From Candidatus Kuenenia stuttgartensis (lineage in GTDB: Bacteria; Planctomycetota; Planctomycetia; Planctomycetales; Planctomycetaceae), in contig CAMDRI010000009.1 of the NCBI GenBank assembly GCA_945906725.1, positions 1 to 60,466 on the forward strand: a DNA stretch of 60,466 bases, given 5' to 3'. Position numbers and translations under genes: made by a program. The stretch's first letter is position 1. Each line of letters opens with the position of its first letter. Below the pieces are notes generated by a model. It ran no database searches. It was given only the letters and a program-made list of their open reading frames with translations, and was not told the origin of the DNA. Below are positions 29,435 to 50,349 of this stretch, in pieces.

Positions 29435-29515
29435 GCAGGTCAGGCTTCCCAGCCTGACTCGAATTGGCAAAACGGTATCGATCGCTGATCGGGTCAGCCT
29501 GGAATGGCTGATCTA
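29435..29515. repeat. REP/BIME-like element between rpiB and gcvH
   Basis: The left arm GCAG+GTCAGGCT-TCCC-AGCCTGAC (29435-29458) and the right arm, complement of GTAG+ATCAGCC-ATTCCA-GGCTGAC (29492-29515), are each a hairpin preceded by GTAG or GCAG, in opposite orientation. The CTA at 29513-29515 is the TAG stop codon of rpiB read on the minus strand. Confidence 0.85.
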
Positions 29516-29953
29516 CGACTTCGCATTCTGGTCAATCTTCTCCAGTCGGCGCTGATGCCGGCCACCTTCAAATTGCGTCTTCACCCAGACATCGACCATG
29601 CGAGTGATGAGTTGTTCGCCTAGCAAGTCTGCCGAGAGACACAGGACGTTGGCGTCGTTGTGCCGACGGCTCATCTCTGCGGTGAAGTCGTCGTGGACGA
29701 GGGCCGCTCGTACGCCAGTGAAGCGGTTAGCGGCGATGCACATGCCGATGCCGCTGCCACAGATCAGGATGCCGCGGTCGGCGCTGTGATTCGCGACGGC
29801 GGTCGCCACCTTCGCGGCGTAATCCGGGTAATCGACGCTCTCCGACGAGTTCGGGCCGAGATCGACCCCCTCTTGGCCGAGGTCGGCAAGCTGCCGCAGG
29901 ATGCGCTCCTTGACGGTGAGTCCTCGATGGTCACTGGCCACTGCGATTCTCAT
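29513..29953 (-). CDS. rpiB: ribose-5-phosphate isomerase B
   Basis: RpiB interconverts ribose 5-phosphate and ribulose 5-phosphate in the pentose phosphate pathway. ASDHRGLTVKE at the N terminus, SVDYPDYAAKVA and ICGSGIGMCIAANRFTGVRAALVHD (Cys65 as the catalytic base) are diagnostic, and 146 residues is the family length. It follows the Sua5-phosphatase fusion by 26 bases on the same strand. Its stop codon is formed by the first bases of a REP-like element, which separates it from gcvH. Confidence 0.95.
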   Translation of the reverse strand: MRIAVASDHRGLTVKERILRQLADLGQEGVDLGPNSSESVDYPDYAAKVATAVANHSADRGILICGSGIGMCIAANRFTGVRAALVHDDFTAEMSRRHNDANVLCLSADLLGEQLITRMVDVWVKTQFEGGRHQRRLEKIDQNAKS

Positions 29954-29979
29954 GATCGTGTTCCGGAAAAAAGAGTTCG

Positions 29980-31065
29980 TCAGACGATATCGTCGAGGAT
30001 CTTTACCAAGTGTTTTTCAATGCTGGCGGCGCAGGCCGCGTATTCGTTCATGCCGCCGCCGATCGGATCGGAGACGTCCTTGCCATCGCGATCGAGCACC
30101 TGCACGCGATCGGCGAGTTCCGGGTGGCTGTCGAGAATCGCCGAGCGGTGGCCGTTGGTCATCGTGTAGCAGCGGTCGATCTGTTCGATCAGCCGATCGG
30201 TGAGCGGCTGACTGGTGTGCGATCGCAGGTCGAGTTTGCAGCGTTTCATCATCTCGACCGATTCGTGGCTGGCCGGGCTGCCGTAGTCGGCGGCGAGTCC
30301 CGCCGATGCCACCAGGAACCCGCGCTTCGTCAAATCTTCCGGCGAGCATTTGAGCCGCTCGGCCAATAGATGGCGGAACAGCGACTCGGCCATCGGGCTG
30401 CGACAGGTGTTGCCGGTACAACAGAAGAGGATCACTTCGCACGCGGCCACTTGCAGTCGGTTTTCCGGAGTCGCTCCGATTCGCTCGGCCGTCCAGGCTC
30501 CGTCGGAGTTGATCTGCACAATCGACGTCCGTGCGTCGGCGTTCGACTCGGCCGCGGCATTGTCTTTCACAACGAGCGCGGCGTCCGTCCACGGAGCGCC
30601 CGTGAAATCCAGATTCTTCGCCGAGGCCTCGATCTCACGAATCAGCAGCGGCCCGCGCGAGAGCTTTGCGACTTCACTGAGAACTGGATGACTCGAAATT
30701 CGCACGGCTATCTGCCCATCCACGATGACGGTGGCCCGACTGCATTCCGGCAGAGCGGCCACAAATCCATTCGTCGCCGACGCTGGAGCACGCAGCACAA
30801 GCGGCCCCGGCCAGCAGCGTCTAGCGATTCGCAGTCCGACTTCCGGCAGATGCGGCAAGAAATCAGCGATCTCGTCGGCAGATCGCAGCAGCAGCGTCGC
30901 CGCCTGGAACCGGCGGCCGGCCGATTCCGCGAGTGCCGCACCGGCCAAGACGTAACCTGCTTCGGAAGGGAGCGCGACCAGTTTGCCCAACGACAAAAGC
31001 TGCACGGCGCGATGAATGACATCACGTCGGTCCGTGACCTCGCGCAGCTCGACGACCTCGGGCAT
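29980..31065 (-). CDS. Sua5/YrdC-like domain fused to a low-molecular-weight (arginine-type) protein phosphatase
   Basis: Residues 1-190 follow the Sua5/YrdC threonylcarbamoyl-adenylate synthase fold (GKLVALPSEAGYVLAG, RCWPGPLVL, IAVRISSHPVL) but the nucleotide-binding KxR and SxN motifs are not recognisable, so this part may be inactive in t6A synthesis. Residues 210-361 are a complete LMW phosphatase: P-loop CTGNTCRS (216-223) and the general acid in DPIGGG (Asp333). The P-loop threonine (Thr220) is the residue that makes Bacillus YwlE an arginine phosphatase; tyrosine phosphatases have isoleucine or similar. The start at MPEVVELREV has GGAG upstream. The gene order with rpiB matches Bacillus ywlC-ywlE-ywlF. 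Physiological substrate unknown. Confidence 0.85.
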   Translation of the reverse strand: MPEVVELREVTDRRDVIHRAVQLLSLGKLVALPSEAGYVLAGAALAESAGRRFQAATLLLRSADEIADFLPHLPEVGLRIARRCWPGPLVLRAPASATNGFVAALPECSRATVIVDGQIAVRISSHPVLSEVAKLSRGPLLIREIEASAKNLDFTGAPWTDAALVVKDNAAAESNADARTSIVQINSDGAWTAERIGATPENRLQVAACEVILFCCTGNTCRSPMAESLFRHLLAERLKCSPEDLTKRGFLVASAGLAADYGSPASHESVEMMKRCKLDLRSHTSQPLTDRLIEQIDRCYTMTNGHRSAILDSHPELADRVQVLDRDGKDVSDPIGGGMNEYAACAASIEKHLVKILDDIV

Positions 31066-31151
31066 TGTCGGGAAACTCCACGTGTAAAAGAACTGGGGAA
31101 ATATAGTGGGATGCCTCGCTGTTCCGCTACGATCCCGCGTGGAGGTGCAAG

Positions 31152-32834
31152 ATGTGCGAGTCATGGATTCTGCGACAAGTTTGGATCAGTTTATGCGTCT
31201 GCGGATTATTGTGCCTTCCGGCATGCCAGCGGACCACGACTTCTCCGCCCGTGATCCGAGCTGACGACTCCGAATCGGGCGCTGGTGGAGCCAAAACCCC
31301 TGACCAGTCTCCGCGCGACGCGAGTGACGACTTCTTCGACAACGGCGTCATCCCGCAACTCAAAATCGAGTTGAAAGAGTCACAGGCGAAGAAACTTCGC
31401 GAAGATGCTCGGCGTTATGTGAAGTGCAAACTGATCGAAACGTTGGCCGATGGCGAGACGACTTACACCGACGTCGCCATCAAACTCAAAGGGGCTGCCG
31501 GCAGCTTTCGCGAATTCGACGATCGTCCGGCTTTCACGCTCAACATGCACAAGCACGAGAAGGACCAGACTTTTCACGCGATGGAGAAATTTCATCTCAA
31601 CAACTCGGTGCAGGACGAGTCGTACCTGAGCGAGTGGCTCTGCTCCGACATCGCTCGCGACGCGAAGGTGCCTGCCACGCGAGTCACTCACGCTCGCGTC
31701 TGGATGAACGATCGCGACCTCGGCCTTTACGTTTTGAAGGAGGGATTCGATCGGCCGTTCCTTAAACGCCACTTCACCGACGCGAGCGGCAACTTCTACG
31801 ACGGCGGTTTCGTGCAGGACATCGACGTCGATCTCGAAAAGGACTCCGGCAACGGCCCCGACGATCACAGCGACTTGCGTACCTTGCAAGCGGCGTGTCT
31901 CGAACTAGATCCTAAAAAACGCTGGCCGGCCATCGAAGAGCGGCTCGACGTGGATGCGTTCGTCAGCTTCATGGCGCTCGAACTGATGACGTGCCACTGG
32001 GACGGCTACACGCCCAGCAAGAACAACTACCGGATTTACTTCGCGCCTCCCAGCGGCAAGGCCCGCTTCCTGCCACACGGCATGGATCAGATGTTCGGCG
32101 ACCCCGGAACCCCGATCCTCGAATACTTCGAGCCGATGGTCGTTAACGCGGTGATGCACAATCCCGAATGGCGCAAACGCTATCGCGAGCGAGTCTCCGA
32201 ACTACTGCCGTTGTTCGAGCCGCAGCGACTGCACGACAAACTCGACACGCTACTAGCCCGGCTGCAACCGGTTGTCGCAGCAATGGGCGAAGAGTTTGTG
32301 AACGCTCACGCCGACCGAGTTCGTGAACTCAAAGAACGGATCGCTGCACGTGAGCCGAACCTCCGCGAACAACTCCAAAACGGCGATCCGACGCCGTTGG
32401 AGTTCGAGGGAGACAAACCGATCGAACTCGCCGATTGGTTCCCCGCTCAAGAGACCGACGACACGAAAGTCGAAGAAGTCGAAATCGACGGCCAGAAACG
32501 CTACTCGATCCAAGTCGGCGATTCCGGCCAATGCGTCGCCTCGTGGCGTCGCAAAGTGCTGCTCGCCAAAGGCCGCTACCGCCTCGAATCACGAATGCGC
32601 ACCGAATCGGTCGAGCCTCGCGAAGACGAACAAGGAACCGGAGCCGGCCTCCGCATCTCCGGCGGCAAGCACGACAACAAGCTCGCCGGCGATTCAGACT
32701 GGCAAACGATCAGTCACGAGTTCGAAGTACTCGAAGACGTGCGTGACGTGATCGTCGTCGCCGAACTGCGAGCGACTCGCGGACGATTGTGGCTCGAACC
32801 GATCTCTCGGTTGGTGCGACTAGCGCCAGAATAG
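31152..32834 (+). CDS. CotH-kinase-family lipoprotein
   Basis: The 560-residue protein begins with a lipoprotein signal (VWISLCVCGLLCLPAC; lipobox cysteine near residue 25), so it should be anchored in a membrane facing outward. Residues 60-380 have the CotH pattern: VAIKLKGAAGSFREFDDRPAFTLNMHK, EKFHLNNSVQDESYLSEWLC, ATRVTHARVWMNDRDLGLYVLKEGFDRPFLKRHF and FLPHGMDQMFGD. CotH proteins are atypical protein kinases of spore coats, also common as cell-surface proteins. The C-terminal 150 residues (from GDKPIELADWFPAQ) look like a beta-rich carbohydrate-binding-type domain. GGAGGTGCAAG precedes the ATG. It is divergent from the Sua5-phosphatase gene across 86 bases. Confidence 0.85.
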   Translation: MCESWILRQVWISLCVCGLLCLPACQRTTTSPPVIRADDSESGAGGAKTPDQSPRDASDDFFDNGVIPQLKIELKESQAKKLREDARRYVKCKLIETLADGETTYTDVAIKLKGAAGSFREFDDRPAFTLNMHKHEKDQTFHAMEKFHLNNSVQDESYLSEWLCSDIARDAKVPATRVTHARVWMNDRDLGLYVLKEGFDRPFLKRHFTDASGNFYDGGFVQDIDVDLEKDSGNGPDDHSDLRTLQAACLELDPKKRWPAIEERLDVDAFVSFMALELMTCHWDGYTPSKNNYRIYFAPPSGKARFLPHGMDQMFGDPGTPILEYFEPMVVNAVMHNPEWRKRYRERVSELLPLFEPQRLHDKLDTLLARLQPVVAAMGEEFVNAHADRVRELKERIAAREPNLREQLQNGDPTPLEFEGDKPIELADWFPAQETDDTKVEEVEIDGQKRYSIQVGDSGQCVASWRRKVLLAKGRYRLESRMRTESVEPREDEQGTGAGLRISGGKHDNKLAGDSDWQTISHEFEVLEDVRDVIVVAELRATRGRLWLEPISRLVRLAPE

Positions 32835-32840
32835 CCGGCG

Positions 32841-35648
32841 TCATTTGGCCAACGACTCGCGAAGTTCGTTCAGTTTCTGCAGCGCCGCGATCGGCGTGAG
32901 TTGCTCGATGTCGAGTGACTTCAACTTCTCGATCACCGGATGTTCCGGTTCGATGAACAGCGAGAGTTGGCGGTCGCAGGATTTCGTTTTGCGATCGGGG
33001 ATTTTGACTTTGCCCGATTCATCGACGTGATCGGATTCCAGTTGGGCCAGGATGACTTGCGCACGCTCGATGACGTCGCGCGGCAGGCCGGCGATTTTGG
33101 CGACGTGGATACCGTAGCTCTTGTCGGCGGGGCCTTCCACGATCTTGTGCAGGAAGACGATGTCGTCGCCGTGCTCGCGGATCGCGACGTTCCAGTTGCT
33201 GGTTTCAGGCAGCGTCTTGGTCAGTTCGGTCAGCTCGTGGTAGTGCGTAGCGAACAGCGTCCGGCAGCGAATTTGATCGTGCAGGAATTCGGTGACGGCC
33301 CAGGCCAGCGAGATGCCGTCGTAAGTGCTCGTGCCGCGGCCGATCTCGTCGAGGATCACGAGGCTGCGGTCGCTCGCGGAATTCAGAATCCGCGCGGTCT
33401 CGGTCATCTCGACCATGAACGTGCTCTGGCCTTTGCTGAGTTCGTCGCTCGCGCCGACGCGAGCGAAGATGCGATCCGCGATCCCGATGCGTGCCTCGCT
33501 GGCCGGGATGAACGATCCCATCTGAGCCATGATCGTCAGCAGCGCCGCTTGCCGGATGTAGGTGCTCTTGCCGGCCATGTTCGGGCCGGTAATGAGCTGG
33601 ACGCGGCCGGAATTTGTAGCCGTCTCGCTCCGCGAGACGATTGCCGAACTCGCAGCCGCGACTTCTGCCTCAATCGGAGCGATGGCCGCGGCGTGGGCGC
33701 CAGGCTTCGGTTGCGTGCCGCTTGAAGATTGAACATCGATCGACGTTCGGCTTTCCTGTCGCGGAGCGACGGGGCTACGTTGGCCCAACCGCACATCATT
33801 TGGCACGAATGACCCGCTCGGCATCAGTTTGTCGAGGACCGGGTGCCGGCCTTCGCGGATGTCGAGAATGGGTTCTTCGGTCAGCTCCGGGCGGCAATAA
33901 CCTTGGTTGACGGCGAGCGTGGCCAGCGCGGCAAGGACATCGACTTCTGAAAGTACGTCGGCAGTTTGCTTCAACCGCGTGGTCGTGGCGGCGACTCTCG
34001 CCCGAAGAGCAGCGAAGAGTTCTTGCTCCAGCGAGATCGCCCGCTCTTCGGCTCGCAGGACTTTGTCTTCGTACTCTTTCAGTTCTGGCGTGATGAAGCG
34101 TTCTTGGTTTTTGAGCGTTTGCTTGCGGATGTACTCGGGCGGGATCTTCGCGGCCTGAGCGGCGGTGACTTCCAGGTAGTAGCCGAAGACTTTGTTGAAC
34201 CCGACCTTCAAGTTCGGCAGACCGAGCCGTTCGGATTCTTTCGCCTGATAGCGTGCGATCCACTCCTTGCCGCCGCGTGCGAGGTCGCGCAGTTCGTCGA
34301 GCGTGGCGTTGAAGCCGGGCCGGATCACGCCGCCTTCAGTGGTCAGCAGCGGCGGTTCATCGACGAGCGTTGCGTCGATGACGCTACGAATCTCGGCGTT
34401 GAGATCGAGGTCCGCTTCGAGCAGTTGCAACAGCACGCTCTGTCTTCCGGCCAACTTGGCCTTGAGCTTCGGCAACAACGCAAGCGAATGAGTCAAGCTG
34501 CCGAGATCGCGTGGACTGGCTCGGCCGGTGGCGATTTTCGCGGTCAGGCGTTGCAGGTCGTAGGTCTCGGCGAGGATCTCGCGGAGGTCGCGGCAGAACA
34601 TCGTGTCGCAAGTCAGTTCCTCGACGGCATCCAAGCGGCGGTTGATCGCGCCGATGTTGGTCAGCGGATTCGACAGCCAGTCGGTCAGCAGCCGTGCGCC
34701 CATCGGCGAGACGGTTTCATCAAGGACTGACAACAGGCTGTTGTCTCGCTTGCCTTCACGAATCGTGCGGGTCAGTTCGAGGCTGGCTCGCGTCGCTTCG
34801 TCGATGATCAGCGACGTGCCGCGGCGATACAGTTCCAAGCGGCTGATGTGAGCGAGCGAAGACTTCTGCATCTCTTGGACGTACTCGAGTAACGCTCCCG
34901 CCGCCGTCACGCCGGCCAAATTGCCATCGATGTCGAAACCTTCGAGCGTCGTCGTGCCGAAGTGTTTCAGCAGCGCGGTGCGACATGACTCTTCCGCCCA
35001 ACACCACGGAGCACGCGATGTCGCGAGCAAGTCGCTGCGAGCGAACAGCGGCCGCAGCCGTTCGTCATTTGTGAGATGCTCCGGGTACAGACATTCGCTG
35101 GGTCGGATGCGAGCCAATTCGTCCGCGAGTTGAGCTGGCTCTAAATCGGTTGTTACAAATCGACCGGTCGAAACCTCCAGCCACGCGAGACCGACTGATC
35201 CGGATCGGCTTGGCCAAATGCTGGCGAGGAAATTCGATTCGCGCGGGTCGAGCAACGCTTCGTCGGTCAATGTGCCGGGTGTGACGACTTGCGTGACCTC
35301 GCGTTTGATCATGCCCTTGGCGAGCTTCGGGTCTTCCATCTGCTCGCAGACGGCGACGCGATGTCCGGCAACGATTAGCTTTCGCAGGTAACCTTCGAGC
35401 GCGTGATACGGGAACCCCGCCATCGGGATCGGATTCGGCGAGCCTTTGTCGCGGCTGGTCAGCGTCAGCCCTAACACCTTCGACGAGACGACGGCGTCCT
35501 CGAAGAACAGTTCGTAGAAATCACCCATCCGAAACAGCAGGATCGAACCGGGATTCTGCCGCTTCACTTCCAGATACCGCTCCATCGCCGGCGTGAGATT
35601 GCGCGGCGTGGGATTTGTGGCGGAAGACTTCTCCTGCGGCTGGCTCAT
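32841..35648 (-). CDS. mutS: DNA mismatch repair protein MutS with an in-frame repeat insertion
   Basis: MutS recognises mismatches and starts repair with MutL. All regions are present in 935 residues: the mismatch-reading Phe-x-Glu in [12 protein letters not shown] (44-46), the clamp and lever region, Walker [10 protein letters not shown] (from 688), the signature [14 protein letters not shown], Walker [17 protein letters not shown] and THYHELTEL. Between [10 protein letters not shown] and [10 protein letters not shown], normally almost adjacent, lie about 55 extra residues (624-678), encoded by an inverted-repeat element. This insertion is immediately before the ATPase P-loop yet keeps the frame. 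The start MSQPQEKSS has GAGAG upstream; an earlier in-frame codon is less likely. Confidence 0.95.
33616..33778. repeat. REP/BIME-like element inside mutS
   Basis: The left arm GTAGC+CGTCTCGC-TCC-GCGAGACG (33616-33639) and the right arm GTCGC-GGA-GCGAC+GGGGCTAC (33758-33778) are opposed hairpins with GTAG and CTAC ends, 163 bp overall. It codes, on the minus strand, for RSPVAPRQ...VSRSETAT within MutS. The intervening 118 bases code for a low-complexity Ala/Ser-rich stretch. Confidence 0.9.
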
Positions 35649-35785
35649 GTCGTCTCTCAGGATGCGTGTCTGGCGATGTGGGCGACAGAATAACGCCATC
35701 AGCTGATCTTGCGACTCTGTGGCCAGACTTCTACGTTGCCCTTAAGAGACGAAATAACTCACGATTTCGGCGAAGTTGTCAGCCA

Positions 35786-36393
35786 ATGACGAACTCTGAA
35801 CCAACAGTCTCTTCCAGGAAAGCGACTCGACCAATTCCTGTTTGGCTGAAGGTGATTTACACCGCATTCGTCTACATCTTGGTGCTGGTCTATTGGCGAG
35901 ACTACGGGCCGACACATTTTGTACTTCTGCTACATGGCGGTGTTCTTCACGCTCGCGGCGGTCTGGACCGAGTCGTCGTTGTTGGCGTCAATGCCGACGG
36001 TGGGAATTCTGGCTCCGCAGTTGTTGTGGGTGTTGGACTTCCTGGCGGAGTGCGTGGGGCTGTCACTGGCCGGCATGACGGCGTACATGCTTAACGAGCG
36101 GATTCCCTTCTTCACGCGCGGGCTGTCGTTTATTCACTTTTGGCTGCCCATCTTGATCGTGTGACTACTGATTTGCTAACGCTTCATGCGAGCCCAGCCG
36201 GCCCCGAAAGAGAACCCAAACCTGCCGGTCAACATCAACTACGTTTACAGATTGGGCCGCGCGGCCTCCAGATTGGATGCCGCCGTTGGCGTACTTGGGC
36301 ATGATGCTTGTGGTGTTGCCGCTGGTGATTTACTGGCCGACGCACCTTGTGTTGAAGAGACTGTTCGGATCGGCAAAGCCGATGGAAACGTAG
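35786..36393 (+). pseudogene. decayed planctomycete membrane protein gene
   Basis: Three pieces of one protein lie in successive frames. First, from the ATG at 35786: RPIPVWLKVIYTAFVYILVLVYWRDYGPTHF. After a frame change near 35915: LYFCYMAVFFTLAAVWTESSLLASMPTVGILAPQLLWVLDFLAECVGL and FTRGLSFIHFWLPILIV, then a stop. After a gap: NPNLPVNINYVYRLG, then a third frame with PDWMPPLAYLGMMLVVLPLVIYWPTHLVLKRLF and a TAG stop at 36391-36393. In order these match a multi-pass protein I know from planctomycetes, with about 35 residues lost in the middle. At least three lesions exclude a single sequencing error. Function unknown even when intact. Confidence 0.85.
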
Positions 36394-36503
36394 CCGTCAC
36401 CGTTCCGCGTAACGAGCCGAACAGTGTCTCCGACGGCAGTCACCGAAATGATCGTGATCGCGTGTGAAACGCTCGGTTCGCCACGCGGAGCGATGACGGC
36501 TAC
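36390..36503. repeat. REP/BIME-like element after the decayed gene
   Basis: GTAGCCGTCACCGTTCCGCGT at the left end and the complement of GTAGCCGTCATCGCTCCGCGT at the right end form 114 bp with GTAG...CTAC termini. The arms belong to the same sequence family as the mutS element. Its GTAG supplies the TAG stop of the decayed gene. Confidence 0.8.
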
Positions 36504-36514
36504 GTTCGCGGCGA

Positions 36515-37258
36515 TTACTGCGTCGCGATGGCTTGTGCCAGCGGACGCAGAATGGGATCAACGACTAATTCTTCGATCAGTTCGTCACAGCGACTGCGAA
36601 GCGTCAGCAGCGTTTGCTCGAAGGAGACGCCCGGTTCGAGGCTGCCGTACTGGCGCAGGGTGAAATAGACGCTGATGTTCTCTTCGGGGTACTCGCCGCG
36701 GCGGACGTGATAGGCGTTGGTACGCGTCTCGATTAATAGCCGAGCTTGCATCCGGCATGATTCGTCGAGTGTCAGCGTGATCGCCGGCTCATAATTCAGG
36801 ACTCGCGCGCCGGGAATGCGCACCAAGCCGTCGATGGCCGGACAGCCGCCGAGCGCTTCGGCAACCAGTTCATCGTGGTTGCCGCGATATGCCATGTCGA
36901 AGCCCATCATGAAGTCGAGCGCTTCGCAGTCCAGCGGGCTGACCGAGAGCATGTACGGCAACAGTTCGAGCGTCAGGCGATGCTGCTCGACGGCGGTGTC
37001 GATGTCCGGCGGGTTCAGGAATCCGCTGCAAACTCGTTTCGGTTCGACCGAGACCCAGCGTTGGTGTCCGAGGTCTTTGTCTTCTTCGAGCACACAGTCA
37101 CCGGTCTCGCGGGTGTAGAAGTTTCGCATCATCGGATACGACTTTTGGACTCGCTCGAAAAACCCCAGAATCGTCTCACGAGCGGCTGGCAGCGGCATCT
37201 CGGTGCTGAGATTCATATTGCAGTAGAAGTCATCGACGTAGGAGTCGAAGGCCAACAT
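36515..37258 (-). CDS. conserved planctomycete protein of unknown function
   Basis: The 247-residue protein begins MLAFDSYVDDFYCNMNLSTEMPLP and continues with GFFERVQKSYPMMRNFYTRETGDCVLEEDKDLGHQRWVSVEPKRVCSGFLNPP; I recognise this as a strongly conserved protein of planctomycetes with no assigned function. It is soluble, acidic, without signal or membrane segment and without a known catalytic motif. Regular spacing of aromatic and acidic residues suggests a globular enzyme or adaptor. AAAGGAC precedes the ATG; 28 more in-frame codons upstream look non-coding. It lies alone, divergent from ogt. Confidence 0.85.
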   Translation of the reverse strand: MLAFDSYVDDFYCNMNLSTEMPLPAARETILGFFERVQKSYPMMRNFYTRETGDCVLEEDKDLGHQRWVSVEPKRVCSGFLNPPDIDTAVEQHRLTLELLPYMLSVSPLDCEALDFMMGFDMAYRGNHDELVAEALGGCPAIDGLVRIPGARVLNYEPAITLTLDESCRMQARLLIETRTNAYHVRRGEYPEENISVYFTLRQYGSLEPGVSFEQTLLTLRSRCDELIEELVVDPILRPLAQAIATQ

Positions 37259-37456
37259 GATTCGGTCCTTTGACGAAAGAACGCACAGACGAGAAAAGCG
37301 TGAGGTCCAGTTCGCACCGAGTGGCGTCTGCGAGGCCCTCACGCTTGTGGTGTTCGCTGGAGGCTGGCAATCAACCTCCGGCGTCGTTAATCGTCGCAGG
37401 TATTCTAGGGGTGCTGCCGAACAAGGTCAAAGAATGCTTTTTCGGAGGAATCGGTC

Positions 37457-37966
37457 ATGCCACTTCAGGCGTGTGTCTTTTCGACACCGTTGGGTTGGTT
37501 CGGTCTCGTCGGCCAACAGCGGTGTGTGTGGCGGTTGGTGATGGGACATCGGACGGCTGCTGAGGCTTGGGCCGGCATGCAGCGCCACTTTGCCGAAGAG
37601 ACGCTGGCCGAGTCGGACTGGTATCCGGCACTACGGAAAAAGTTGGAAGAGTTTTCGACGGGAAAGCGGGTTTCGTTCGACAACATCCATGTGCGAACCG
37701 AGCATCGCACCGAGTTTCAACGGAAAGTCATTCTCGCCACACGAGCGGTGGGCTTTGGCGAGACTGTCAGCTACGGCGAACTCGCCGCGCGAACTGGGTC
37801 GCGGAATGCGGCGCGAGCCGTGGGAACAGTGATGGCCAACAACGACGTCCCAATCATCATTCCGTGTCATCGCGTGCTCGCGAGTGGCGGAAGAATTGGT
37901 GGCTTCTCGGCTCCACAAGGCATCGACCTCAAGCGGCGGTTGCTGGAGTTGGAAGCACAAGCGTAG
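37457..37966 (+). CDS. ogt: methylated-DNA-protein-cysteine methyltransferase
   Basis: The protein removes alkyl groups from O6-alkylguanine by irreversible transfer to its own cysteine. The active-site PCHRV is at 136-140 (Cys137), preceded by the DNA-binding helix TGSRNAARAVGTVMANND with its arginine finger and followed by GGRIGGFSAPQGIDLKRRLLELE. At 169 residues it is a single-domain Ogt/AGT, without an Ada regulatory domain. GGAGGAATCGGTC precedes the ATG. The TAG stop is the beginning of a REP-like element. Confidence 0.95.
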   Translation: MPLQACVFSTPLGWFGLVGQQRCVWRLVMGHRTAAEAWAGMQRHFAEETLAESDWYPALRKKLEEFSTGKRVSFDNIHVRTEHRTEFQRKVILATRAVGFGETVSYGELAARTGSRNAARAVGTVMANNDVPIIIPCHRVLASGGRIGGFSAPQGIDLKRRLLELEAQA

Positions 37967-38036
37967 CCCGACCCCTTGTGGGTCGTTCAATTCCTGCGCT
38001 CATGCAAATCACTCAAGCCACAAGGGCCTGAGCTAC
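37963..38036. repeat. REP/BIME-like element after ogt
   Basis: The left arm GTAGC+CCGACCC-CTTGT-GGGTCG begins at 37963. The right arm, ending CTAC at 38036, is the complement of GTAG+CTCAGGCC-CTTGT-GGCTTGAG. Each arm is a hairpin with a CTTGT loop. The remaining interval to 38212 shows no gene. Confidence 0.85.
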
Positions 38037-38212
38037 GGGGGTTGCTTCGTGACTGAGACAGCATGTCTGTCAATAGTCGAAACGACTGATCGTGACGAAG
38101 TTCTTCACCTTCGTGAAATCGTCCGCTCATCCGCTTCCTCGCTGTTGAAAGCCATGACTAGAATCGCCGCCGTCCCGCTCTCGTCAATTTCGGGTTCAAC
38201 GAAAGTGCGGTC

Positions 38213-38767
38213 ATGAATGTCGGCATTGTCAGGCCAGATGTCTCGGAGCTGAATCTCGCGATTCTGGGCCGCTCCGTGCATCCGGAATTGTTTGCGATTT
38301 ACGAGCGGACCTCGGTGGTTCGAGACGGCTTCCAGATGCACCTCGCGATCTGCGAGGCGGGCCATCTATTGGAACTGCGCACGCCGCAGCAGACGCTGTG
38401 CGAGATTGTCGCCCCCAAACGCCAATCGCTGCCGCACCGCGAGCGGCTGTTCGACAAGAAGCTGCGAGGCAGCCGCGATGAATCGCTCTGGCTGCCAGGC
38501 GGCATCGGCTATCAAGTCAGCTTTCAGGTCGAGCGGTTGGACCCAGACATCTACCTCCAACTGCACGAAGAATTCTCCGTCGACTGCCGCAAGGCAACGC
38601 TCGGCCGCATGTTCGACCCACCAAACCGGTTGGCTCCGGCCGCTGTGAGCTATTTGCAACTGGACCTGTTTCCTCGCAGTCTGCTGGTCCATGCCTTTCA
38701 CACGTTCCCTGAAAACTGCGCCGTCGTGAAAACGCAAACGTTGATCGAACTGCCGGAAGCCAAGTAG
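38213..38767 (+). CDS. DUF2617-family protein
   Basis: The 184-residue protein (MNVGIVRPDVSELNLAILGRSVHPELFAIYE..., LELRTPQQTLCEIVAP, VDCRKATLGRMFDPPNRLAPAAVSYLQLDL) matches in layout the DUF2617 family found in planctomycetes and actinobacteria. The family has no known activity. There is no signal or membrane segment; the sequence is a mixed alpha/beta soluble protein ending in FHTFPENCAVVKTQTLIE. The ribosome binding site is weak. Its TAG stop is formed by the next REP-like element. Confidence 0.78.
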   Translation: MNVGIVRPDVSELNLAILGRSVHPELFAIYERTSVVRDGFQMHLAICEAGHLLELRTPQQTLCEIVAPKRQSLPHRERLFDKKLRGSRDESLWLPGGIGYQVSFQVERLDPDIYLQLHEEFSVDCRKATLGRMFDPPNRLAPAAVSYLQLDLFPRSLLVHAFHTFPENCAVVKTQTLIELPEAK

Positions 38768-38842
38768 GCCGGCCTTTCCAGCCTGACCCGAACGAGGGTG
38801 ACTTCTCGATTCCGATTTGTCAGCCTGGAAAGGCCGACCTAC
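38764..38842. repeat. REP/BIME-like element between the DUF2617 gene and the phosphatase gene
   Basis: The arms GTAGGCCGGCCTTTCCAGCC... (38764-38787) and its near-perfect complement ending ...GGCCGACCTAC (38819-38842) match over 24 bp with two mismatches. The right arm is a hairpin, GTCAGCCT-GGAA-AGGCCGAC with one G-T pair. Termini are GTAG and CTAC. Confidence 0.9.
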
Positions 38843-40037: not shown

Positions 40038-40073
40038 GACGTAGGATGGGCACTCTTGCCCCAGGAACCGCTC

Positions 40074-48300: not shown

Positions 48301-50349
48301 ATGTCCCTAGCCTCCCCGCTCGCGCTCCTCTGGCTCGCCACCCTCATCCCGGTAGTAGTCTTCTATTTTTTGAAGATCCGCCTGCGGCGGGTGCCAGTCT
48401 CGACGATTCTGTTCTGGCGGCAGATCTACGACGAGCACCAGCCTCGTTCGATCTGGCAACGGATGCGACATTGGCTTTCGTTACTGGCTCAGGTCGTATT
48501 GATTCTGCTGCTCGTCGGAGCTCTATCCGATCCGTTCTTCGGCTGGGAGACTCGGCAACTGCGACGGATCGTCTTGATCGTGGATAACTCTGCCAGCATG
48601 AACGCGACCGATGTGTCGCCGTCGCGCCTGTCAGCCGCGAAGGACGAGGCGTTGCGAGTCATTCGCGAATTACGGTACCGCGACGAACTGGCCGTCGTCG
48701 TAGCTGGCGGCGCTCCGCGAGTCGTCTGCGGCTTTTCGAGTCACGGCCGCACGCTGGCTCATGCGGTTGATGATGTCCTGCCGACGGATAATCCCACGCG
48801 GGTCGCTGAAGCGGTTGACCTCGCTCGCCGATTGCTCGGCGAACGGCAAGACGAGCATCAGCGCGAGATCGTCGTACTGACGGACGTGGGGCAGGTTTCC
48901 AAACTGCCCGGCGAAGAACCACAACTTCCCGATCCGTCGGTCTCCAACGAAACACGGACAGGTTCAAAACCTGCCCCACGACTCACCGTTCGACGCTTCG
49001 GTACGAACACCGGAAACGTCGGCATCACGCGGTTCCAAGTGCGGCGGAGTTTGATCGATTCGCTCGGCTACGAGATTCTCGCGGAGGTCACGAACGCCTC
49101 GGATGAGCCGGTCGAATGTCGCTTGGAAATCCAGCTCGACGAAGACGTCGTCGATGTCGTGCCGCTAAAACTGGCTCCGGGCCAGCGCTGGAGTCAGTCT
49201 TTGGAAAAGACCTCCACCGAGGGCGGGCACCTCTTGGCCAAACTCGATCGACCAGACACTCTCGCGGCGGACAATCGTGCGTGGGCCGTGCTGCCTAATC
49301 GTGAGTTGATGCCGGTAACGCTTGTGTCGAAAGGAAATCTTTTCATTCAGAAAGTGTTCGAGTCGAATCCTCTGGTTGTGCTGACTCGCGTTGAGCCGGC
49401 GGCATGGAAGCTAACTTCCGAGCCGAGTGCGGGCATCACCGTCTTATATCACCACGTTACCGATCAACTGCCTGAGGGTTCGCTGCTGGTGATCGATCCG
49501 CGCGGCGACTGCGATCTCTGGCAGCTTGGCGAACCGGTGCAGAATCCAATCGTGAATCAGCAAGACAAAGACTCGCCGCTGCTCAGTCATGTGCGGTTGG
49601 ACAACGTCCTGATGCCGGAGGCTCGACAGGTGAAGTTCGCCAGCGACGAAGGAGTCAAAGTGATCGCCCGATCGCTCGCGGGTGATCCGCTGTTGGCGAC
49701 CGTCGAGCGGCCGGGGCAGAAAGTGTTGCTGCTGACGGTCAATCTCGAAGAAGGCGACTTGCCGCTCCGCACGGCGTTTCCGATCTTGATGATGAACGCC
49801 TTGAATTGGTTCACCGAAAATCGCGGCGAGCTGCGCGAGTCGTTGTCGACGGGAGCGATCACCGAGATTGATGCTGCGGTACTGAACACAGGCGATCGGC
49901 GCGGGTCTCCTGACCCCGCCGCATCAGCCGACCGCGGGTCTCCTGCGACGAATGCCATCACCACCTCCGAAGGAGACCTAAGGTCGGAAAACGGGCGGGG
50001 TCAGGAGACCCGCGCCCACCGCAGCTTGCTCTCATTGATCGCTCCGGACGGACGCCGCTTGGCGTTGCCGATGCAGACCGAGCGGCTGTCGTTGGGGCCA
50101 TTCGATCAATGCGGTGTATGGCGAGTCATCGACGCAGAAGGCGACTCGACGTTGTTTGAACTTGCCTGCAACCTCGCAGATCGGAATGAGTCGGACGTGC
50201 GAGTGCCGAAATCCGTCGAGGTGACGACAACGTCGGTGATCTCGGCGAATGGACTCGGCAATCGGCCGGCGTGGTTTTGGCTGATCGCGTTCGCGTGGTT
50301 GTTGATGTCGATCGAGTGGTGGGCGTATCAGCGACGAGTGATTACATGA
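48301..50349 (+). CDS. BatA/vWA-type membrane protein with two in-frame palindrome insertions
   Basis: The 682-residue protein has two N-terminal membrane segments (ASPLALLWLATLIPVVVFYFL; LSLLAQVVLILLLVGAL) of the BatA type, a vWA domain with metal site IVDNSASMNATD (about 95-106), a long periplasmic-type beta region and a C-terminal membrane segment (AWFWLIAFAWLLMSIEWWAY). It probably acts with the DUF58 protein upstream. Two stretches, residues about 196-226 (VGQVSKLPGEEP...) and 533-572 (RRGSPDPAASADRGSP...), are encoded by inverted repeats, interrupting the vWA region and a late loop. GGGAGG precedes the ATG. Confidence 0.85.
   Translation: MSLASPLALLWLATLIPVVVFYFLKIRLRRVPVSTILFWRQIYDEHQPRSIWQRMRHWLSLLAQVVLILLLVGALSDPFFGWETRQLRRIVLIVDNSASMNATDVSPSRLSAAKDEALRVIRELRYRDELAVVVAGGAPRVVCGFSSHGRTLAHAVDDVLPTDNPTRVAEAVDLARRLLGERQDEHQREIVVLTDVGQVSKLPGEEPQLPDPSVSNETRTGSKPAPRLTVRRFGTNTGNVGITRFQVRRSLIDSLGYEILAEVTNASDEPVECRLEIQLDEDVVDVVPLKLAPGQRWSQSLEKTSTEGGHLLAKLDRPDTLAADNRAWAVLPNRELMPVTLVSKGNLFIQKVFESNPLVVLTRVEPAAWKLTSEPSAGITVLYHHVTDQLPEGSLLVIDPRGDCDLWQLGEPVQNPIVNQQDKDSPLLSHVRLDNVLMPEARQVKFASDEGVKVIARSLAGDPLLATVERPGQKVLLLTVNLEEGDLPLRTAFPILMMNALNWFTENRGELRESLSTGAITEIDAAVLNTGDRRGSPDPAASADRGSPATNAITTSEGDLRSENGRGQETRAHRSLLSLIAPDGRRLALPMQTERLSLGPFDQCGVWRVIDAEGDSTLFELACNLADRNESDVRVPKSVEVTTTSVISANGLGNRPAWFWLIAFAWLLMSIEWWAYQRRVIT
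48886..48979. repeat. GTGGGGCAG-family inverted repeat inside the vWA gene
   Basis: The left arm GTGGGGCAGGTTTCCAAACT... (48886-48909) faces the complement of GTGGGGCAGGTTTTGAACCT... (48956-48979). The family is the same as the intergenic element at 2199-2264. It adds about 31 residues between VVLTD and LTVRRFG without breaking the frame. Confidence 0.88.
49898..50016. repeat. perfect 23-bp-arm palindrome inside the vWA gene
   Basis: GGCGCGGGTCTCCTGACCCC... (49898-49920) pairs perfectly with 49994-50016. A nested inverted repeat (49928-49944 with 49971-49987, 14 of 17 pairing) makes an extended 119-bp hairpin. It encodes a Ser/Arg/Asp-rich loop and is in frame. Confidence 0.92.

Follow-up and report, generated by a model that had tools for sequence, protein, structure and literature searches.

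This study concerns short inverted repeats with GTAG..CTAC ends in a 60,466-bp stretch of DNA (contig CAMDRI010000009.1 of assembly GCA_945906725.1, here C9), which we refer to at its full length as the window. The source genome is a 5.45-Mb draft in 268 contigs, about 92% complete, and was compared with 11 congeneric genomes (G001-G011), giving 12 genomes of the genus. Five elements lie in the central part of the window, each built of two inverted arms with a GTAG-type foot. Element 1 (29435-29516, 82 bp, family A) is located between rpiB-like and gcvH-like genes, with its left foot decayed to GCAG and its right foot reading CTAC. Element 2 (33616-33778, 163 bp, family C) lies in frame inside mutS (32841-35648, minus strand; the start at 35648 was used as query, and a longer open frame reaches 35699), directly before the segment encoding Walker A. 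Element 3 (36390-36503, 114 bp, family D) is intergenic, element 4 (37963-38036, 74 bp, family E) is at the end of an ogt-like gene (37457-37966), and element 5 (38764-38842, 79 bp, family A) is at the end of a gene at 38213-38767. The family labels, A to Q, are our own and were set by arm sequence, with single linkage merging some families. A sequence-only reading of this DNA had listed the same five elements; all were found by direct inspection, four with exact coordinates, while element 1 has the proposed design and ends at 29516 rather than 29515. It further proposed at least three subfamilies sharing the GTAG rule; by our assignment, the five belong to families A (twice), C, D, and E. An Rfam search of the window at gathering thresholds returned no match.

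We consider it very probable, from anatomy and distribution, that the five elements are repetitive extragenic palindromic (REP) doublets forming hairpins (REPINs), that is, inverted pairs of GTAG-footed REP hairpins spread in trans by cognate REP-associated tyrosine transposases (RAYTs, of the Y1/HUH type). Motif counts were made on 1,255,466 bases, comprising the window and 60 other stretches of the same genome (hereafter the sample). In a scan of GTAG and CTAC spaced by 40-250 bp, with arms taken as matching when 14 or more of the 20 subterminal bases agreed, 55/313 candidates had matching arms, compared with 1744/1,408,710 (0.124%) over all 256 tetranucleotides, a rate approximately 140 times that of the average tetranucleotide. 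The only tetranucleotide with a higher pair rate was TAGG (29/79), which is the same motif shifted by one base. A scan that did not depend on pairing found GTAG directly before 43 of 896 perfect 8-bp hairpins, where 1.2 were expected, a ratio not reached by any other tetranucleotide that occurs eight or more times at that position; GTGG was found at 35/896 hairpin feet against 3.3 expected. The enrichment of GTAG at arm ends is thus strong by both measures, as the sequence-only reading would have it. Chance palindromes were considered as a source of the elements and were ruled out by the pair enrichment, the hairpin-foot enrichment, and the absence of any match to reversed controls.

At least ten families coexist in this genome. 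Families A to J, M, and N each have 3-54 arm copies in the sample at up to 3/24 mismatches, with zero matches to the reversed-pattern control of every family, while families K and L have no arms there at that threshold. Families D and E have eight and four copies per arm type, respectively, at up to three mismatches. Across the whole genome at up to two mismatches, there are 131 family A arms and 58 family C arms, and again no reversed-control match. At a looser arm match of at least 12/20, the sample holds 63 elements. Thirteen family A dimers (at least 17/24 identity, one of them closer to another family) have spacers of 27-34 bp, and most have unlike arms, one reading GTCAGGCT..AGCCTGAC and the other GTCAGCCT..AGGCTGAC; family E arms are likewise of two unlike types. 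A separate palindrome, GGGAGGGCGAGGCTCCCGCCGAGCC, lacks a GTAG foot and has 13 copies in the sample at up to three mismatches; it was also seen at mutS of G001 and at a gene end in G006 (L128), both REPIN sites in other species.

Three of the five elements supply the stop codon of a neighboring gene. The right foot CTAC of element 1 provides the TAG of the rpiB-like gene (29513-29953, minus strand), and the left feet GTAG of elements 4 and 5 provide those of the ogt-like gene and the gene at 38213-38767. Across the sample, leaving aside 4/63 pairs scoring below 13/20, the TAG of the foot closes the longest open frame (at least 100 codons) in 41/118 arms, compared with 328/3338 other GTAGs (odds ratio 4.9, p = 9e-13; these are open frames whose status as genes is unconfirmed). 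Stop codons contributed by a REP foot are already known from other species (PMC3733652).

Gene-end positions of this kind would also suit RNA-level elements, namely terminators or stabilizers of mRNA ends, whose two arms pair into one long transcript hairpin and whose function explains their persistence. The eight orthologous copies of element 5 that we aligned (the G003 row begins one base late) lend this some weight, with two arm-to-arm pairs changed on both sides (3 cells, reached by 25/500 shuffles), an arm-to-arm covariation score reached in 14/500 shuffles, and no two-sided changes within arms. The same alignment, however, has arm-to-arm pairing broken at two swapped positions, in 6/8 and 8/8 sequences, and kept in 89.0% of cells overall, compared with 93.8% for pairs within arms. 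Family E arms match each other at just 12-13/20, one copy is inside mutS, and concerted changes could also come from template-switch correction of palindromes. We see only a slim chance that an RNA role is what explains the elements, though they may have a secondary function. We take the single-arm hairpin to be the preserved unit, even though the arms also change together at places; its preservation is expected if a RAYT reads single-stranded arms.

The sequence-only reading saw no RAYT gene in the window and placed the mobilizer elsewhere. The assembly itself holds four Y1 (RAYT-like) genes, placed by match coordinates, and all four proteins have HWH and YVE(R/L)N, i.e., the HUH and Y...N motifs. 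They score 58.3-68.8 bits against the NCBIfam RAYT model NF047646, under its cut-off of 80; of the 12 genomes compared, 8 have a match above it, ours not among them. Downstream of one of the four (L001), at 73 bp, lies a pair of GTAG hairpins whose family has zero copies in the sample at up to three mismatches and two at up to five; the L001 protein has a sole PDB sequence match at E ≤ 0.01, to 4ER8, the TnpA-REP of Escherichia coli (E 0.0055). Another (L185) has one unrelated GTGG hairpin nearby, and the remaining two have none. Queries with the RAYT genes found beside families A and C elsewhere in the genus (RAYT-A and RAYT-C) gave no close copy in our genome for RAYT-A, with a best match of 31% identity, and no match at E 1e-6 for the RAYT-C fragment.

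In sister species, RAYT-like genes were found beside copies of the same families. Of 98 matches to the NCBIfam RAYT model, 30 loci were examined, and 7/30 were flanked on both sides, at up to 700 bp, by arms of a single family, compared with 3/1605 control open reading frames of our genome (p = 4e-11). Family A accounts for two of these seven loci (G010, G008), and family E (G010, where the gene is a short frame), family H (G008), and a GTGG family (G007) for one each; the other two (G003, G004) involve families absent from the window. Outside those 30 loci, a RAYT-like gene in G007 has family C on both sides and one in G006 has family D on one side; families M, N, and others also have RAYT-like partner genes in the genus. 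By alignment by eye, RAYT-A has WQ and a nearby D, H, and R at the positions described for GTAG recognition. The proposal of a mobilizer elsewhere is therefore upheld in sister species, where RAYT-like genes are flanked by the same families, but not by the four Y1 genes of our own genome. Two Y1 genes (L068 in G008, contig C482; L082 in G004, contig C390) are short and carry a Y...Q..HH motif, resembling subclass 1.2 as described in PMC6006769; GTAG hairpins of one family lie near both, on both sides in L068.

We also compared the presence of a putative mover with the quality of its copies, scored as the share of exact arms. For family C, G007 has 68/92 exact arms, compared with 72/214 in the other 11 genomes, and it also has the most arms; these exact counts were sought after G007 had already topped the arm count, leaving only purity as a prediction. 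For family A, the two genomes with an intact RAYT-A have 157/222 (G010, gene on C27) and 121/244 (G008, gene on C185). G011, which had no match in two Y1 family searches, has 7/66, and the values elsewhere are 33/131 in our genome, 29/101 in G007, 8/54 in G005, 3/35 in G003, 0/5 in G001, and 0/3 in G009. The result for family A is mixed, given the exceptions described below. A lumped test of RAYT presence against purity (p = 2e-6) was set aside because it masks those exceptions.

Several observations weigh against the REPIN interpretation. No partner RAYT for the window's families was found in our own assembled genome, and none of its four Y1 genes is flanked by families A, C, D, or E. Most of the RAYT-like loci examined (23/30) are without same-family arms on both sides, and a GTAG or GTGG hairpin of any kind lies near 16/30 of them and near 453/1605 controls. 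Three genomes match G010 and G008 in family A purity without an intact close RAYT-A (G004, 216/316, which has RAYT-A remnants only; G002, 74/111; G006, 99/197), and the prediction of family A purity from RAYT-A presence was not borne out. The RAYT-C gene of G007 (L198, contig C5) is split by an inverted repeat bearing an in-frame stop, so RAYT-C activity there would be recent rather than present. Finally, the concerted arm-to-arm changes of element 5 across species are not predicted by a single-arm hairpin view. The repeat that interrupts L198 is an inverted repeat of the GTGGCACAGG type. Because the Y1 genes of our genome lack flanks of the window's families and neither RAYT-A nor RAYT-C was detected, the copies in the window are either orphaned or have their partner genes in the unassembled part of the genome. 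The copies in this genome look like leftovers of past spread.

The peptide of element 2 occupies approximately residues 623-680 of MutS; in the match to a solved MutS it falls in the break between two aligned parts, and the Walker A strand follows directly. Among the named records that match this MutS best, at 63-64% identity, are Thalassoglobus neptunius and a draft genome assigned to the Planctomycetaceae. MutS was compared in 11 genomes of the genus including our own, with G006 excluded since it has only a mutS fragment. From VPND to TGPNM, the length is 17-18 residues in nine genomes of other genera, and 72, 57, 55, 54, 54, 47, 44, 38, 38, 30, and 18 residues in the 11 genus genomes. An insert before Walker A is thus present in 10/11 genus genomes, with at least six types of inverted repeat, and in 0/9 outgroups; the site of G005 is nearly empty. 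The inserts belong to family C (our genome), family A (G010, G004), and a GTAGCACAGG family (G008, G002), while G001 has a GGGAGGGCGAGGCTCC palindrome, G007 and G009 have two G-rich inverted repeats, G003 has a TTCCGAGT inverted repeat, and G011 has a shorter one seen by eye, below the script threshold.

Such recurrence could mean that the MutS loop is a targeted or selected landing site rather than a merely tolerant one. At least three REPIN families and several unrelated inverted repeats would then have entered it in frame, in separate events, in almost all species, either because the site is targeted or because the loop tunes mismatch repair. The insert types, which include three GTAG families, fall within the same few codons, and elsewhere in MutS there are only two inserts of ten or more residues, in one genome each (G005, G001), differences from start choice and contig ends aside. 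Unrelated inverted repeats without a GTAG foot occur at the same place, however, and the left insertion points vary by a few bases. Outside the genus, among 77 MutS proteins of named genomes in which the loop could be located (of 80; three were dropped), the distance from RHP to TGPNM is 29-34 residues in 69 and 38-65 in eight, so long loops occur there as well. A modest-quality AlphaFold model (mean pLDDT, the predicted local distance difference test, of 68; 13 sequences) places residues 611-692 below pLDDT 50, and the insert is accordingly predicted to be unstructured. An early insert that freed the loop to vary would be an alternative account. We regard a targeted or selected site as unlikely, and our cautious reading is of a tolerant surface loop that has been colonized repeatedly. 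The other two inserts, near residue 23 in G005 and near residue 165 in G001, are likewise in frame and have peptides (VGQVSNLP.. and VGQAARL..TGEPPVL) that resemble translated REP arms by eye.

The comparison of orthologous sites covered elements 1, 2, 4, and 5, with element 3 not mappable in relatives. Element 4 is absent from G007 and G011, where the ogt-like gene is two codons longer and ends in TGA. A decayed copy was seen by eye in G003, G004 has a REPIN of another family, and G010, G008, and G002 each carry some other inverted repeat; two of these resemble the G004 element with altered feet. At the element 1 site, family A is present in our genome and, decayed, in G003 (by eye), and family D is present in G001; there are other inverted repeats in G005, G006, G007, and G011, and none in G002, G004, G008, and G010. 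Relatives without element 1 differ in the surrounding region. In G006, G011, G007, and G005, the rpiB-gcvH gap (L116-L119) was observed to be filled by TTGG/CCAA-rich inverted repeats. At the site of element 5, six of the seven mapped congeners carry the same family and the seventh a decayed copy, so that no empty site was found among them; in G006, a different palindrome lies at the end of the neighboring gene. Besides mutS and ogt, further unoccupied REPIN sites were seen among the congeners. The empty sites in relatives that the sequence-only reading expected were therefore found at mutS (nearly so in G005, and in all nine outgroups) and ogt, but not for element 5 among the mapped congeners. 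Beside element 3, the segment 35786-36390 appears by eye to be a gene for a small membrane protein, broken into two frames and ending at the element.

Short elements with inverted termini, many copies, and unoccupied sites might also be miniature inverted-repeat transposable elements (MITEs), moved by an ordinary DDE transposase acting on terminal inverted repeats and leaving target duplications. No clear target duplication was seen by eye in five comparisons of occupied and unoccupied sites, what is conserved is a hairpin footed by GTAG or GTGG, and the genes found between same-family copies are of the Y1 type. A MITE origin is, in our view, highly improbable.

As REPINs, the elements would be non-autonomous doublets that move by single-strand transposition through cognate RAYTs acting in trans. 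By analogy with the studied TnpA-REP and IS200/IS605 enzymes, the RAYT would bind the hairpin as a single strand, use GTAG as a guide to position cleavage, and excise and reinsert the doublet. Copies would then persist where they do little harm, whether at the ends of genes, for which the foot's TAG often serves as the stop codon, or in tolerant loops such as that of MutS before Walker A. The REP/BIME-like identity (BIME, bacterial interspersed mosaic element) first proposed from the GTAG termini is supported by anatomy, copy number, inverted doublets, and RAYT flanking in sister species, all of which favor a REPIN.

Beyond the five elements, the inventory of the sequence-only reading was incomplete. 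Outside the range it covered, the window also contains two family Q dimers with a GTGG foot, probably REPINs as well, at 2199-2264 (66 bp) and 48886-48979 (94 bp), and a single family B arm at 40041-40064 (plus strand, 3/24 mismatches). In G007, the site corresponding to 2199-2264 is taken by a REPIN of family A, and copies of family Q lie on either side of a RAYT-like gene on contig C229.

Several known systems resemble the one described here. The GTAG REP super-family of Di Nocera et al. 2013 (PMC3733652) shares the GTAG foot with hairpin, several families per genome, inverted dimers, the TAG stop, insertions inside DNA-repair genes, and tyrosine transposase genes flanked by repeats. It includes planctomycetes, with several GTAG families in Rhodopirellula baltica, and also Opitutus terrae. 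REPs were thought in the sequence-only reading to be little described in planctomycetes, which this earlier publication contradicts; they are already known in the phylum, and the window's elements are further members. The arms here differ in coming from another planctomycete genus, and mutS is absent from the main text of that paper, which does describe different REPs at about the same recB site in two Xanthomonas species. In-frame REPs within genes, tolerated in loops, are described in PMC6006769. A literature search, judged by title and abstract of the top-ranked matches, found no paper on REPs in mutS, and the mutS case is a rich example not found in the literature searched. The REPINs of Pseudomonas fluorescens (Bertels and Rainey 2011, PMC3116915) share the inverted REP doublet with spacer as the copied unit and the proximity to specific RAYTs, but belong to another phylum and have other sequences; here, many families coexist in a genome and several have a partner RAYT found only in sister species. 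The REPs of fluorescent pseudomonads and stenotrophomonads (Nunvar et al. 2013, PMC3686654), also of another phylum, share the many REP classes, each with a cognate RAYT, and loss of the RAYT was proposed there to end REP spread. TnpA-REP of E. coli, with its REP/BIME repeats, shares the HUH and Y motifs with L001 in addition to the sequence match, while the Y1 proteins of our genome differ from it in scoring under the RAYT-model cut-off and in lacking flanks of the window's families.

The 12 genomes of the genus hold many REP families, several of which have a partner transposase that can be identified in one species but not in another, and so amount to a natural experiment on REP movement and on the loss of its mover. 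Annotators of such genomes should bear in mind that unusual inserted peptides and TAG stop codons may come from REPs. At the mutS site, mobile repeats have repeatedly been turned into protein beside the ATPase motif of an enzyme central to repair, and the effect of this loop variation on mutation rate is directly testable.

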